Below, in pieces: positions 1,150-5,600 of a DNA stretch of 24,666 nucleotides (the first letter of the stretch is position 1; the number at the start of each line of letters is the position of its first letter). The notes under the pieces were generated by a model, which saw nothing but the letters and a program-made list of their open reading frames with translations, was not told where the DNA came from and searched no databases. Location of the stretch: positions 1 through 24,666 of the IMG/VR virus record IMGVR_UViG_3300030105_001971. One strand, 5' to 3'. Source of the DNA: a virus. Both the position numbers and the translations under genes were made by a program.

Positions 1150-1899
1150 TTAATTCTTATATTTATCTAGATTCATTTTAACGAGTATAGGAGTCTGCCC
1201 TCCGTTTAATACTACTCCGCAGCCTATGGCGTTCTTTTTACCTCCTGCGGCGTAAGCAAAAGCATACTGCGAGTCGTCAATACCACACCCGACAGCCATG
1301 GCAAAAATAGCTCTAGTCTTTCCAAACATATAATCTATATAGAAATCTGTGTGAAAATGCCCCGTAATTGTGGAGACCATATCCCTACGAGCTGCCGTCC
1401 TTGCCTTAGAGCTTTTATGCCCATGTACATAACGCACGCCGTCAATATAGGTATCCGTAACCCATTGCCAAGTCGGAGTCCCTAGCACGTCGTTAAACTC
1501 TTTTATCCAAACTCTAGGCACGCCACTATCGAAAGCTTTGCGCATTATTATAGCGTCGTGATTACCTATACAAACCTCTGCGTCTGGAAATGCCTCATAC
1601 CAATCTTTTACTCGCTCTACGCAAAGGTCTAACTCTGCGCCTGCGGAGTAATCTGCGTCGGGGTCGTTAGAATGAAAGGACGCATAGTTATTATCTATTA
1701 TATCGCCAATAAAAACGACTCTATTACATTGATACTCTTTATATGTATCCTTGCAAAATTGCAAATAGTCTTTGCGCTCAAATGGCAAGTGTACATCTCC
1801 AATAACTAGGACTCTAGACTTGTCGGCTTTTGCTCTCATTTCTAACAGAGCGCTTTCCTCTTTTTGGTTTAACCTGTAGCGGTTGGTTTGGTTTTTCAT
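1150..1899 (-). CDS. Calcineurin-like metallophosphoesterase
   Basis: This 249-residue protein shows the full metallophosphoesterase signature in order: GDVH at 34-37 (Asp35, His37), GDIID at 65-69 (Asp66), GNHD at 112-115 (Asn113, His114), HGH at 159-161 and GHFH at 180-183. These residues bind the two metal ions of phosphodiesterases and phosphatases. Phage members near replication genes are often taken to process nucleic acid ends or cyclic nucleotides, but the substrate cannot be read from sequence. The stop codon region overlaps nothing downstream, while its start overlaps the primase-helicase stop by 4 bases (ATGA), so the two are probably translationally coupled. Confidence 0.9.
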   Translation of the reverse strand: MKNQTNRYRLNQKEESALLEMRAKADKSRVLVIGDVHLPFERKDYLQFCKDTYKEYQCNRVVFIGDIIDNNYASFHSNDPDADYSAGAELDLCVERVKDWYEAFPDAEVCIGNHDAIIMRKAFDSGVPRVWIKEFNDVLGTPTWQWVTDTYIDGVRYVHGHKSSKARTAARRDMVSTITGHFHTDFYIDYMFGKTRAIFAMAVGCGIDDSQYAFAYAAGGKKNAIGCGVVLNGGQTPILVKMNLDKYKN

Positions 1900-4145
1900 G
1901 ATTTCTCGCTGTTAAATTTAGTAATATATCTCTGCGTTGTTCGTATAGATTTGCCTAGCATATCGGCAATATCTTTTTGAGATACGTCGGGGTTTTTAGT
2001 GTATATACTTTTAAAATTAGTATAGGCGTCTTTTTTATTATCGAAACTGCTTTTAATTTTAGTACGCTCGGCGCTCTCGATTTTAATTTTATTAGCCATA
2101 TCTATAAAATAATGCGCTAATTTCTCAGCTTTTAAAATACTAGACTTACAGACTTCGTCTTTGTGTATCTCTTTATTTTTTTGAGACTCTAGCGTGTTAA
2201 TTAGCAGGGCAAATCTAGCGACGTAGGCTTTCATTTTAGGCAGCATCGACTTATTACCCTCTGCTATATCCTCGCTCTTTTGCATCGATGTAATTTCCTT
2301 GTGTATTCTCTTGTATTCTATTTTAGCCTCTGGAGTAAACTCTGCCGTTACTGCCTCCACTACGTTACTCTCGTTTAATTTTAGATTTCTTTTTGTGGAT
2401 TCGTAAAATTTAATAATAAAATTCTCGTACCAATCTAGTAAATCCTGCTCAATTTCCTCGTCTACGTAGTCCTCGACCTCAAGCTCTGGATAACTGAATA
2501 ACATTCGGTCAATAAATCCGTTGCTTTTATTCTCCTCTGTTTGGAATCCGTCTAATATGCTAGGCTGTATACCGCCCATAATTGGCAAAAAAGCTCTCTC
2601 TACAAAGCTACTCTTTGCGGTCTTTCTGTTTAGGTTAATCTCGCCGCCACTCCAAGAGGATAGCCAATGCTCCATATCGCCACCTTCCCTGTATTTGTTC
2701 ATATCCTTAAAGAAACCTGCAAGCTCGTCTTTTAATACTCCTATGCCGTTTGTGTTTTCGTTGTGTAATTCTACAAGCGCCTCAAGAGTTACGTCGTTAA
2801 CTAAAAATTGCGTTTTCTTTGGCTTAAAAACAGGCTCTTTTAAGACTTTTTGTTTAGCCTCCATATTGTTAAACTCCTCAAATTTAGCCTCCGCTACAAT
2901 ATACTTTTTTATTTCTGTGCTATTTGCTTTATCTAAAGGGAACGTAATACCTTTAATAGACGGCGTCTTTCCTACTCCTGCCTTTCCTACTAAAGAGAGC
3001 CAAATACTAGGCGTTTCTTTCCACCCGTTTTTAATTTTTATCTGTTGGGAGTTACCTACTATAATAGAGGTTAAAAATAACAAGCTACAACCCATGTAGT
3101 CAATAGACTGCTTTAGCGTTCGATGTCTTTCTAGTATATAATATTGTAAATCGACAGGAAATATCTCTAATGGAAACTCTGTATTAACGCAAACCTCTTT
3201 CTCCTCTATAGCAACGCTTATAGGAGCATCTATTGCAATACGAGAGCCAAAGCCTTGAGAGTATAACTCTTTAGCAGCAAGGCTCTTGTCGCCGTTATGT
3301 ATGTAGTGAGCGTAAACCATAAAGGGATTATATCCTTTCTCTGCCTCGAAAGACGTTCCAGAGGTAAAGAGATACAATAATCCGTTATCCTTATAGATAT
3401 ATCCACTATGAGCGGAATCTGCGCCCTTGCGTCTTATTATATACTTATCCTTTAGGTTTCTAACTACGTCAAAGTCTGCGCCTATTAAGTCTAGTATACT
3501 TGTTTTATTGTTGTAATCCTCCCAAGCGGTCAAGCCTGTAGTTATAGCCTTGTTTTTTTTAGGTTTCTCGATTACCTCTATAGCCTCCTCTTTGTGGTCG
3601 TATGTCTTGGATATAGAAAATAAAATAGCTCGGTCCTCGTCGCTTATATAATCAATATCTGTATACTCTTTGCCGTTTAATATGTCGGCATAAGCTACAA
3701 TATATCCGCCTACTCCTCTAGTCTCGAGTATCTGCTGCTTATGACCTTTAAGTTTAGCGACCTTTAGGTTTCCCTCCGCTCTTTTAGACTTATATAAAAT
3801 GTGAAATCCGTCGTTTATAGTTTTAGCTATCACAAACTTATCTTTAAAATTAAAGATGTTATCCTCTAAAAAGCTAATATACTCCGCCCAAAACTCTTTT
3901 TTTTCTCTAGCGGTAGAGAACACTTTTAAATCTACGTCTAAACATTCCAAGTCGTTAAATCCTGTAACAATCCCGACAGCTTTAGCTTTTGTTTTAAGAT
4001 ACTTTACTCTAAAACCCTCTATATCTGTAGCTGTTTCCTGCGCTTGTTTCCAACTTCCTACAGGTATTTTATCCGCCGTTGCCGTAATAAGGGAGAAACC
4101 TCTCTCGATTAAGTTATTACATTTTTGTATATCTAGTTTTATCAT
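1896..4145 (-). CDS. Primase-helicase: Prim-Pol N-domain, DUF3987 ATPase, C-terminal HTH
   Basis: A 749-residue multidomain replication protein. Residues about 10-170 resemble an archaeo-eukaryotic primase (Prim-Pol) domain: ECLDVDLK near 66-73 supplies the metal-binding Asp-x-Asp, DGFHILYK near 112-119 the conserved His, and ETRGVGGYIVAY near 140-150 the third motif. Residues about 320-570 match DUF3987, with Walker A GKAGVGKT near 387-394 and a possible Walker B region KDELAGFF near 470-478. The last 50 residues (PDVSQKDIADMLGKSIRTTQRY) form a likely winged or resolvase-type helix-turn-helix. Together these suggest primer synthesis, unwinding and origin recognition in one chain. The gene follows a structured leader and an octamer repeat array, and its stop overlaps the phosphoesterase start. 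Confidence 0.85.
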   Translation of the reverse strand: MIKLDIQKCNNLIERGFSLITATADKIPVGSWKQAQETATDIEGFRVKYLKTKAKAVGIVTGFNDLECLDVDLKVFSTAREKKEFWAEYISFLEDNIFNFKDKFVIAKTINDGFHILYKSKRAEGNLKVAKLKGHKQQILETRGVGGYIVAYADILNGKEYTDIDYISDEDRAILFSISKTYDHKEEAIEVIEKPKKNKAITTGLTAWEDYNNKTSILDLIGADFDVVRNLKDKYIIRRKGADSAHSGYIYKDNGLLYLFTSGTSFEAEKGYNPFMVYAHYIHNGDKSLAAKELYSQGFGSRIAIDAPISVAIEEKEVCVNTEFPLEIFPVDLQYYILERHRTLKQSIDYMGCSLLFLTSIIVGNSQQIKIKNGWKETPSIWLSLVGKAGVGKTPSIKGITFPLDKANSTEIKKYIVAEAKFEEFNNMEAKQKVLKEPVFKPKKTQFLVNDVTLEALVELHNENTNGIGVLKDELAGFFKDMNKYREGGDMEHWLSSWSGGEINLNRKTAKSSFVERAFLPIMGGIQPSILDGFQTEENKSNGFIDRMLFSYPELEVEDYVDEEIEQDLLDWYENFIIKFYESTKRNLKLNESNVVEAVTAEFTPEAKIEYKRIHKEITSMQKSEDIAEGNKSMLPKMKAYVARFALLINTLESQKNKEIHKDEVCKSSILKAEKLAHYFIDMANKIKIESAERTKIKSSFDNKKDAYTNFKSIYTKNPDVSQKDIADMLGKSIRTTQRYITKFNSEKS

Positions 4146-4155
4146 TTGCTTGTAT

Positions 4156-4236
4156 AAAAAAACTCCTATTAAATAAGCTCAAGGTAGGAGGAGCTTAAAA
4201 AATAAGAGTTTTATAATGTGAAAGCTAACCTCCTAC
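4156..4236 (-). promoter_or_regulatory. Structured leader: terminator hairpin with competing anti-terminator
   Basis: Read as reverse-strand RNA, bases 4212-4201 pair with 4170-4159 (12 bp, one G-U). Three unpaired U's follow on each side, then 4197-4191 pairs with 4180-4174 (7 bp, UAAGCUC with GAGCUUA) around a 10-base loop. A run of seven U's (4162-4156) forms the 3' edge, so this looks like an intrinsic terminator 11 bases before the primase-helicase ATG. An upstream segment (4236-4222, GUAGGAGG plus AGCUU) is complementary to 4196-4184, which covers the loop and half of the inner stem: 13 pairs with a 2-base bulge. The two folds cannot both form fully. The G-U pair is a C-A mismatch on the other strand, which supports reverse-strand RNA as the acting molecule. 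Confidence 0.6.
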
Positions 4237-4276
4237 GATTTGCTGTTTGTGATTATACTTGAGCGGACAATCACTA

Positions 4277-4284
4277 CAAATATA
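4277..4284 (-). promoter_or_regulatory. Candidate Bacteroidota -7 promoter box for the primase-helicase
   Basis: On the reverse strand these bases read TATATTTG, an exact match to the TAnnTTTG -7 element known from Bacteroidota sigma-A promoters. Transcription would begin near 4270, giving a leader of about 125 bases that contains the attenuator-like fold. No clear TTG-type -33 element was found at the usual 19-21 base distance, so the assignment rests on the -7 box and its position. A short inverted repeat (GTGATT 4249-4254, AATCAC 4269-4274) lies at the predicted 5' end of the RNA. Confidence 0.4.
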
Positions 4285-4327
4285 AAGACTTTGTTTTAAA
4301 TTAATCCCTATAGTTATAAACAATACA

Positions 4328-4563
4328 AACACGACAAACACGACAAAATAAAATCGCGATGTCGTGTCCTCCGCCCAGTGTGGCATTGACTTTGTTGCCA
4401 AAACACGACAAAAAAGTGTCGTGTCGTCTTTTTTATAAATACTAGCGCTTTATTTTTTCAGTTTCAAAATACACAACACGACACGCCAAATGTCGTGTTT
4501 CTTTGTAAACCCTTGCTATCACTAAGATAATGCACACGACACGCTAAAAAATTATGTCGTGTT
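4328..4563. repeat. Nine-copy octamer array (ACACGACA/TGTCGTGT): candidate origin or operators
   Basis: ACACGACA occurs at 4329, 4338, 4403, 4476 and 4534, and its reverse complement TGTCGTGT at 4360, 4417, 4491 and 4555. The first two copies form an exact 9-base tandem (AACACGACA). The others are arranged as four facing pairs with spacers of 14, 6, 7 and 13 bases; pair centres are about 61, 74 and 61 bases apart. A further inverted repeat, TGGCA...TGCCA, lies at 4381-4400. No gene is seen here. The array sits just upstream of the primase-helicase promoter, a usual place for phage origin iterons or for repressor operators; the sequence does not decide between them. Confidence 0.75.
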
Positions 4564-4581: not shown

Positions 4582-4613
4582 AAAAAGCCTATAAATCAAA
4601 TTACAGGCTTTTT
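4582..4613 (-). terminator. Terminator after the sigma-factor operon
   Basis: AAAAAGCCT (4582-4590) pairs with AGGCTTTTT (4605-4613). Inside, TAA (4592-4594) pairs with TTA (4601-4603) across one mismatch, leaving a 6-base loop. A/T runs on both sides let it work in either direction. It begins 20 bases beyond the stop of the Cys-rich gene and would insulate the repeat array from leftward transcription. Confidence 0.7.
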
Positions 4614-4633: not shown

Positions 4634-5125
4634 TTAATAACTCTCGTATACTTTATCTAAACTCGCAGTAATCATTTTTAAGATGTTAGCCGTTCCGTTG
4701 CAGTTTGCGCACATACGCTTTGTATCGTATCTTAAAGCAAATACCCACTCGTAAGTATTAAACACTAATTTCGCCTGTTCTGCGCTCCATTTATCTACCT
4801 CTCTTGTCTTAAAAAAATTATCGTAAGCCTCAAACATAGCCTTATCCATACAGCGTTTAGGTTTCTGCGATACGTTAAAAGTTGGCGAGTTGTTTAAGCG
4901 TCTTTTGCGCTCGTCACAGCCGCAATCTTTGCCCTCTGGAGTAAATACCTCTACAATTTTAGATACCCCCGTAGCTTTAAGCACTTTCTCGATTGTTGTA
5001 CCAATCCCCACATCGTCCACATTTTTAGTCTCGATAGATTTATCGTAGGCAAGTTTCATTTTTTTGTATTTTTTACCTCTTTTGTCTCCTTTAAAATTTT
5101 TAAGGTCTTTTTTAGTTACTTTCAT
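4634..5125 (-). CDS. Cys-rich CGC-DxRK phage protein, unknown function
   Basis: A 163-residue protein with a Lys-rich first 30 residues, then GIGTTIEKVLKATG (40-53), DCGCDERKRRLNN (67-79) and a C-terminal CANC (139-142) followed by an amphipathic helix ending KVYESY. The GxGxTIEKxxKATG...DCGCDxRKxxLN arrangement recurs, as far as I recall, in small conserved proteins of flavobacterial phages, with no known role. Cys68, Cys70, Cys139 and Cys142 could hold a metal ion. It overlaps the sigma-factor gene upstream by 14 bases and is followed by a terminator, so the pair forms a two-gene operon. A regulatory or nucleic-acid role alongside the sigma factor is possible but unproven. Confidence 0.7.
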   Translation of the reverse strand: MKVTKKDLKNFKGDKRGKKYKKMKLAYDKSIETKNVDDVGIGTTIEKVLKATGVSKIVEVFTPEGKDCGCDERKRRLNNSPTFNVSQKPKRCMDKAMFEAYDNFFKTREVDKWSAEQAKLVFNTYEWVFALRYDTKRMCANCNGTANILKMITASLDKVYESY

Positions 5126-5600
5126 TTTTACGCTTTTTTAAGTGTTTTAGATTACTATTTTTATATTTTTTGTAATCCTCTTTTAAAATTTTTTTAAGTC
5201 CTTTATGTATTTGACGATGTACATAACAATAATTAATATTAAACTCTCGTCCTATCTGTCTTGTAGATTTATCAAAACTCTCTTGTATCAATTCCTGTTG
5301 CACCATAGGCAGGTCGTTAAACCTATCTAAATATATCTGTTGCTTGTCGCTTGGCTCAAAAGTATTTTTATAGTCTTTTAAGTTTATATCCTCGATAAAT
5401 AAGTCCTCTTTGTTTTTTCTTATCTGGTCGATGTAAAGGTTTCGCATTGTATGAATCACAAACCAATCGCTTTGGAATTTAGAATTTTGGAGTTTTATGT
5501 ACATGTCTTGTACAATATCTTGAGCCTTGTGGTAATCTCCGCAAATGCTTTTAGCGATTGCAAGCCAATCTTTATTTCTTTGTACTAATTTTTCTAACAT
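5112..5600 (-). CDS. Sigma-70-family (ECF-like) factor
   Basis: This 162-residue protein resembles short sigma factors. Residues 24-37 (HKAQDIVQDMYIKL) look like region 2.2, the core-polymerase contact; residues 50-62 (HTMRNLYIDQIRK) look like region 2.4, which reads the -10 area; residues 97-140 hold a region-4-like helix-turn-helix (STRQIGREFNINYCYVHRQI). The C-terminus is strongly basic. A phage-encoded factor of this kind could redirect host RNA polymerase to late genes. It is the first leftward gene from the divergent 5601-5733 region, consistent with early expression. Some small phage regulators and terminase small subunits also carry such HTH segments, so the sigma call is good but not certain. 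Confidence 0.7.
   Translation of the reverse strand: MLEKLVQRNKDWLAIAKSICGDYHKAQDIVQDMYIKLQNSKFQSDWFVIHTMRNLYIDQIRKNKEDLFIEDINLKDYKNTFEPSDKQQIYLDRFNDLPMVQQELIQESFDKSTRQIGREFNINYCYVHRQIHKGLKKILKEDYKKYKNSNLKHLKKRKNESN

Follow-up and report, generated by a model that had tools for sequence, protein, structure and literature searches.

Classical riboswitches and leader-peptide attenuators place mutually exclusive folds at a U-run hairpin ahead of the first gene. In the plasmids pT181, pIP501, ColIb-P9 and ColE1, antisense attenuation or RNA loop pairing controls a replication gene or primer, the controlling RNA being made from the opposite strand. Phage P4 encodes the primase-helicase alpha, and its pairing segment goes by the name seqB. 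As outlined in PMC4825925, the P4 CI RNA finds its pairing partners in seqA, which lies upstream, and in seqC, which lies downstream, and it brings transcription of the replication genes to a halt. For P1 and P7, the account in PMC12197685 portrays a c4 antisense RNA whose complementary segments probably reside in RNA loops, which pairs near a ribosome-binding site and forms the basis of heteroimmunity.

Here we describe a leader in a 24,666-nucleotide stretch of viral DNA (IMG/VR record IMGVR_UViG_3300030105_001971), referred to in full as the window. As in the P4 system sketched in PMC4825925, RNA complementarity lies in the leader of phage replication genes and is linked to premature termination, here a predicted one. 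The window further shares with P4 a leader of a primase-helicase operon and a seqA-like upstream target, a segment A1 lying ahead of its complement A'. In contrast to P4, both interacting segments are predicted hairpin loops, with the terminator itself providing the second; a seqC-like downstream target is absent from the window and present in a minority of relatives; no Rfam family is shared; and the hosts are Bacteroidota-type. Because it has neither a downstream target nor an Rfam family match, the window is not filed as a member of the P4 CI family. The c4 RNA resembles a group of 17 related loci with downstream targets, but its target, according to PMC12197685, is the ant mRNA rather than replication genes, and no Rfam match connects the two. 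At the gathering cut-off neither c4 nor isrK nor any other Rfam family matched the window or 20 related loci, in agreement with the preliminary description of this DNA, which had recognised no known riboswitch class; at E <= 10, three weak matches appeared in 4100-4400 (E 2.2-4.1), all far below gathering. The leader has RNA loop pairing on a replication gene in common with the plasmid systems, which differ in drawing their RNA from the opposite strand. An antisense promoter of the type CAAAnnTA within 79 nt past the terminator occurred in 2 of 45 cases, as compared to 5.8% in shuffles, and was thus not enriched. Exclusive folds at a U-run hairpin are likewise shared with classical riboswitches and attenuators, in contrast to which no conserved aptamer or Rfam family was found here. 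A literature search over titles and the beginnings of abstracts, with subscription literature mostly outside its reach, returned no description of the element.

Parts and predicted folding of the leader

The leader covers positions 4274-4156 of the minus strand, between a gene at 4634-5125 and the primase-helicase gene (1896-4145, minus strand), the first gene past it. The encoded protein matched Prim-Pol (PF09250), DUF3987 (PF13148) and a winged-helix HTH family (PF13412), as well as phage helicase and primase families, and is followed on the same strand by a phosphoesterase and an SSB-like protein (phrog_4932; PF11325). No named phage matched the window at the DNA level, nor did the phage collection yield a close primase: all tblastn matches of the primase stayed below 60% identity, with a query coverage of at most 57%.

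Several features adjoin the leader. Immediately upstream of its promoter box, a cluster of direct and inverted CACGAC/GTCGTG words (4330-4561) contains 9 of the 13 plus-strand copies in the window, and many relatives carry repeated words of their own at the corresponding place, for example GTTTACAGT and GGTGTGAAATT; judged by its sequence, the cluster looks like an iteron-type replication origin. The preceding gene (4634-5125) is closed by an ordinary terminator-like hairpin (4582-4613, minus strand). Two genes upstream of the primase, a small protein with a sigma-70 region 2 match, a phage sigma-like factor, is encoded at 5112-5600 (minus strand).

Read along the minus strand, the leader consists of TATATTTG, TA, hairpin P1, hairpin P2 with the loop GUAGGA, a two-tier hairpin with U7, 10 nt and the AUG. 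We take TATATTTG (4277-4284, minus strand, read from the sequence, 2 nt ahead of P1) to be a Bacteroidetes-type -7 promoter box with the consensus TAnnTTTG. Since TAnnTTTG has 57 copies on the two strands of the window, the motif alone is weak; the box is kept in all 13 leaders of the window's clade that are long enough to include it (L015 is cut off). All further elements lie on the minus strand. P1 (GUGAUU/AAUCAC, 4249-4274) folds at the predicted RNA 5' end, where the preliminary description had placed a third stem, and is an extra hairpin of the window's clade. P2 (4223-4244) is predicted to pair AGC-A-AAUC with GGUU-A-GCU, and its region contains A1, GUAGGAGG (4229-4236), identified by complementarity search and folding as the partner of the terminator loop. 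The terminator-like hairpin (4156-4212), inferred from sequence and fold, comprises a 12-bp outer stem, AAAACUCUUAUU/AAUAGGAGUUUU (arms 4212-4201 and 4170-4159), a U3/U3 internal loop, a 7-bp inner stem, UAAGCUC/GAGCUUA (arms 4197-4191 and 4180-4174), a 10-nt loop, CUCCUACCUU (4190-4181), and a U7 run (4162-4156), the last U of which is separated from the AUG at 4145 by 10 nt. The two-tier hairpin thus stands as first described, and so does its single imperfect pair, a U-G pair in the outer stem that is possible only in the minus-strand RNA. By sequence and fold, the window shows the stable hairpin and following U run of an intrinsic terminator; a simple terminator scan restricted to loops of 3-8 missed it, its loop being longer. 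A', CCUCCUAC (4184-4191), consists of a loop segment plus one inner-stem base and is complementary to A1.

A longer upstream pairing of 13 bases had also been proposed. It is possible in the window, where GUAGGAGG..AGCUU can pair with AAGCUCCUCCUAC over 8 + 5 bp with a UU bulge, AGCUU (4226-4222) and AAGCU (4196-4192) forming a possible 5-bp extension of A1:A'. From a reading of the leaders, the family does not retain these extra 5 bp, and a 13-base strand swap did not hold up as a conserved feature; the family keeps a pairing between two hairpin loops instead. Two other candidates were set aside. A 7-nt match between the P1 loop GCUCAAG (within 4274-4249) and CUUGAGC across the terminator loop and inner 3' arm (4180-4174) is lost in L020, L023 and others, and AGGAGGU as a Shine-Dalgarno site was treated as coincidence, given the other letters at A1 elsewhere. 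Bacteroidia ribosomes are reported in PMC9976891 not to recognise such sites. Inspection of the window by eye revealed no leader peptide, AGGAGG being followed merely by an AUU-started frame.

The minus strand folded at -35.2 kcal/mol (z -4.35), a value matched by 1 of 200 shuffles; for the plus strand, z was -1.89 and 8 of 200 shuffles did as well. In the full leader, the terminator fold reached -33.3 as compared to -28.2 with GUAGGAGG:CCUCCUAC forced. Within the first 94 nt, when the 3' arm is not yet made, the minimum-energy fold was the GUAGGAGG:CCUCCUAC pairing itself (-25.5). In this folding model, the order of preference, with A1:A' predicted for the 5' fragment and the terminator for the full leader, is what a co-transcriptional switch requires. 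Against dinucleotide-shuffled upstream sequence, the 8-bp A1:A' match had a p of 0.019 for the window alone. The window alone is only suggestive, and it is the relatives that decide.

Loop-loop complementarity among relatives

We aligned the leaders of ten relatives with primases at least 90% identical to that of the window, giving 11 leaders. On this alignment, 92.9% of 379 cells of the drawn structure pair, and sliding the partners lowers pairing to 43-59%. In 13 cells both partners are altered, a count that averages 6.8 in shuffles and that none of 500 shuffles attains, and 5 pairs show double changes, a number that 79 of 500 shuffles reach. P1 is variable, with 65% of cells paired, double changes in 3 of its 6 pairs, and 2 of the 6 failing in 7 of 11 leaders. 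The inner 4 pairs of P2 are invariant; by reading, its arms are UAUAAUC/GGUUAUA in L017, L018 and L022 and GUGUAAUC/GGUUAUAC in L020 and L023, the outer part being AGC/GCU, UAU/AUA or GUGU/AUAC across the clade. Outer and inner terminator stems have one double-change pair each, and 4 of 11 leaders lack the last inner pair. Because the loop pair hardly varies in this clade (5 of 6 loop pairs invariant, one A-U changed to G-U), support for the A1:A' pairing comes from other clades. A search of all viral contigs for the pattern GTAGGAGGTTA...CTCCTAC yielded, outside the clade, matches that by their context look like chance.

The distant set comprised primases 40-54% identical to that of the window, relatives of the L093 primase and genome contigs, the relatives being those among the matches listed (80 of 179 for the distant primases and 80 of 571 for the L093 search). 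The genome collection gave no relative with a narrow alignment and seven contigs with a broad one, namely six metagenome bins and one Chryseobacterium isolate contig (L213). Altogether, 148 loci with a related primase-helicase were analysed, the window itself being excluded and its clade being represented by L014 and nine others. Repeats of contigs already used and loci without upstream sequence were left out (for example L013, L015, L025-L029, L070, L103, L117, L120 and L168). The 148 include two contigs in duplicate (L080/L136 and L098/L137); all four loci lie outside the strict set. To find leaders by a rule blind to A1, we took TAnnTTTG followed 20-75 nt on by a terminator-like hairpin, keeping the best hairpin score. 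Among the matches listed, 88 of the 148 loci fit this rule, and they form 50 leader clusters.

Complementarity was scored between the promoter-to-hairpin segment and the hairpin interior. The best ungapped A1:A' score was at least 16 in 46 of the 50 clusters, a count still including seven leaders later dropped by eye, as compared to 8.5% of 2450 swapped pairs. At least 18 was reached by 38 of 50 clusters (3.1% of swapped pairs) and at least 20 by 18 of 50 (1.0%). Leader by leader, against dinucleotide shuffles, p was <= 0.05 in 36 of 50 and <= 0.01 in 20 of 50, so that 14 leaders are individually not below 0.05. The best complementary site fell into the hairpin interior in 47 of 50 cases, the interior averaging 51% of the hairpin, and into the 3' arm in two and the 5' arm in one. 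The preliminary description had made conservation of pairing among relatives a test of its proposal; what we found is the opposite of a refutation, a pairing kept with different letters.

Of the 88 fitting leaders, L071, L082, L107, L142, L183, L203 and L211 were dropped because another hairpin had been picked or the match was weak or GU-rich, leaving 81 leaders in 45 of the 50 clusters. In the minimum-energy fold, A1 lies in a hairpin loop in 29 of 45 clusters, as compared to 12% of 900 shuffled-flank folds, A' does so in 35 of 45 and both do in 24 of 45, the loops being mostly 6-10 nt. For the stem around A1, 27 of 81 leaders gave p <= 0.05 in comparison with shuffled flanks. A1 starts 2-22 nt past the TTTG box in 72 of the 81 and at 34-40 nt in nine, which represent the clade of the window, where P1 is present in addition. 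Most fitting leaders share one plan, in which TAnnTTTG is followed by a short 5' hairpin with A1 in its loop, a spacer, the terminator-like hairpin with A' in its loop and the gene, which in distant leaders is the primase or a small ORF ahead of it. By its predicted anatomy this is a kissing-loop pair, one loop of which belongs to a terminator-like hairpin. The distant leaders have few letters in common with that of the window, and reading 81 of the 88 strict leaders and the 50 cluster representatives revealed no word common to all. Some scaffolds recur in the terminators of leaders that hold both partners in one RNA (type I), with mainly the A' core changed, such as GGAGGC...GCCAAA-like forms and GAGTAGTTGC...CAACGAAA (L066, L069, L093, L099, L130, L147, L165, L198 and L212).

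The rule fails for 60 of the 148 relatives, of which 14 belong to the group with downstream targets. A relaxed scan of the 60 yielded 18 candidates, several of which are plainly iteron repeats, and these were not counted as support; the other 42, including 11 of the downstream-target group, gave no candidate even then. By eye, L085, L089, L092 and L119 among the 42 do have an A1/A' pair, and L064 has a plain terminator-like hairpin without A1. In the remaining misses, the start of the operon may lie at another place, or the element may be missing.

Downstream targets and changes of pairing type

The 17 loci of this second arrangement (the L071 group; 12 distinct sequences; example L111:2371-2464) carry a constant GGGGTTGTCGGAGGCATCCACTTAAAAGGTT, then a variable loop, CCTTTCCCC and a U run, the constancy of the scaffold word following by construction from its use in choosing the loci. 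The complement of the variable loop lies downstream, usually twice, with the second copy shortened in some, and the last complement ends 2-3 nt ahead of the ATG. Five loop words, two of them overlapping, each have their own matching downstream words. Because the hairpin stands between loop and targets, terminated RNA would contain the loop only and read-through RNA the targets, which is the layout of a trans-acting RNA. Among type I leaders, four of 81 (L061, L114, L115 and L116) have a convincing copy of A1 right before the next ATG; as a general type I rule, a third downstream copy was rejected, its median equalling the swapped control. On the minus strand of the window, no further GTAGGAG occurs downstream of A1, the other minus-strand copies (15246 and beyond) lying upstream; downstream there is only the hexamer UAGGAG, within the terminator 3' arm.

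Pairing types change between similar phages. We compared 80 type I loci with proteins, calling A1 different when no 6-mer was shared and setting A1 of L018 by hand to that of its clade for this count, as its best match had been the P1 loop. With primases at least 98% identical, 8 of 26 pairs differ in A1, although four of the eight merely reflect the one-base variant of L020; the corresponding figures are 10 of 22 pairs at 95-98% identity and 63 of 65 at 75-85%. Pairs from the second arrangement with primases at least 98% identical differ in the loop in 10 of 20 cases. Where A1 differs at 85% identity or more (61 pairs, 122 scores), cognate A1:A' scores average 18.6 and non-cognate ones 10.1, a gap that arises partly by construction because the pairs were selected for different A1. 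In L187/L195 and L176/L190, the whole intergenic region is replaced (44-52% identity, as compared to 93-94% over the first 600 bases of the gene). Since the entire region has turned over, the type I swap is not specific to A1, and the sequences mark this region as a modular replication-control cassette. In the second arrangement, the scaffold stays while the loop changes.

Proposed mechanism and alternative readings

The preliminary description had proposed a terminator/antiterminator-like leader ahead of a primase-helicase, and the Prim-Pol, DUF3987 and HTH matches and the pairing kept across relatives bear this out. Two predicted hairpins, the complementarity of their loops and its retention with other letters, the promoter box and the gene context can be read directly from the sequences. 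The observation is real in sequence, RNA-level by its predicted anatomy and kept in a large part of the phage family, and it has the appearance of an RNA switch for phage replication. We consider the element, with a probability of roughly 0.6, to be an RNA transcription attenuator that heads the replication operon in a family of Bacteroidota-type phages and is perhaps set by leader RNA of the same type. From the features above we infer termination, antitermination by pairing in cis and, with most reserve, action of the leader RNA in trans. The nascent RNA would first form the small hairpin with A1 in its loop and then the terminator hairpin, which displays A', the complement of A1, in its apical loop. 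As long as the polymerase has released no more of this hairpin than its 5' arm and A', A1 could capture A' and delay or block the terminator, allowing read-through into the primase-helicase. If A1 were occupied or lost this race, the terminator should form and transcription stop after about 120 nt. The likeliest occupant of A1 or A' would be a second copy of this leader RNA, and the replication genes would then be kept in check by phage RNA sharing their pairing type, as feedback or kin-type immunity.

We favour trans action because the complements of the 17-locus group lie downstream of the terminator, by the ATG, and because loop pairs differ at 98-99% primase identity. As no word is common to all leaders and no Rfam family matched, we consider a ligand-binding riboswitch improbable and prefer a model in which RNA controls RNA, as in P4 CI or plasmid copy control. 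The type-specific pairing, exchanged between phages, and the downstream-target group point to further copies of the leader RNA rather than to a ligand as the deciding factor, a role that a protein could also play. Extending this reading, each Bacteroidota phage might have its own kissing-loop pair on the replication-operon terminator, the terminated leader acting in trans on its own type only, modules being exchanged to escape, and the pairs defining RNA incompatibility or immunity types among near-identical phages. We put forward such a widespread, self-contained pairing code tentatively, at somewhat less than even odds.

The same changes of pairing type between near-identical phages would also suit superinfection immunity of the P4 kind, in which the terminated leader is a stable antisense RNA that chiefly serves to shut off the replication genes of incoming same-type phages, a reading that is possible but on the whole doubtful. 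The order of complement, loop and, in a minority, second complement ahead of a primase-helicase recalls P4 CI between seqA and seqC (PMC4825925), and the 17 loci with their 12 sequences combine a constant scaffold and downstream targets with a loop that varies. On the other hand, a convincing downstream copy is found in only four of 81 type I leaders and not in the window, and no family match to Phage_integrase, Resolvase or AAA_31 (ParA) was seen in 35 contigs of 13-64 kb, which may be incomplete. Given the lack of these three matches, lysogen immunity is not established, and copy-number feedback or exclusion during lytic growth would fit as well. An attenuator acting in cis only, with no trans RNA, could instead be controlled by a protein of phage or host origin, such as the operon's SSB or primase-helicase, that binds the kissing complex or the 5' hairpin. 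That SSB-like protein and primase follow in a row on one strand, that type I leaders hold both partners in one RNA and that, by reading, scaffold letters such as GGAGGC...GCCAAA recur in subfamilies would all agree with this idea, which we regard as rather unlikely: a protein site would need a shared word, and none is common to all leaders, while the downstream complements of the 17-locus group would be left unexplained.

The folding energies and L064 raise a simpler thought. The A1:A' fold is 5 kcal/mol less stable than the terminator fold, and L064 has a plain hairpin without A1 at this place, as would be expected if the 5' UTR structure were constitutive, setting the primase level as a terminator close to the promoter or as a stability hairpin, with loop pairing merely compacting the RNA. 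Yet a loop-loop match kept in 46 of 50 clusters with varied letters needs selection for pairing, which makes this account improbable. Least credible, to the point of being very nearly dismissed, is a DNA-level inverted repeat serving as a protein or recombination site. A1 and A' do form an inverted repeat in DNA and iteron-like repeats adjoin, but A' sits in the interior of the terminator-like hairpin (47 of 50), A1 frequently occupies the loop of a small hairpin and is similarly spaced from the promoter box, and one G-U pair in the window is strand-specific.

Pairing-based RNA control of phage replication is already known from P4-like elements. The leaders described here present a loop-loop version of it, in about 50 leader types of uncultured Bacteroidota-type phages and with different letters, and the question whether leader RNAs act in trans between related phages becomes directly testable. 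If they work as proposed, these leaders would form a set of natural orthogonal kissing-loop attenuators and would provide the phages with a compact replication switch, and us with a handle for predicting which phages exclude one another.
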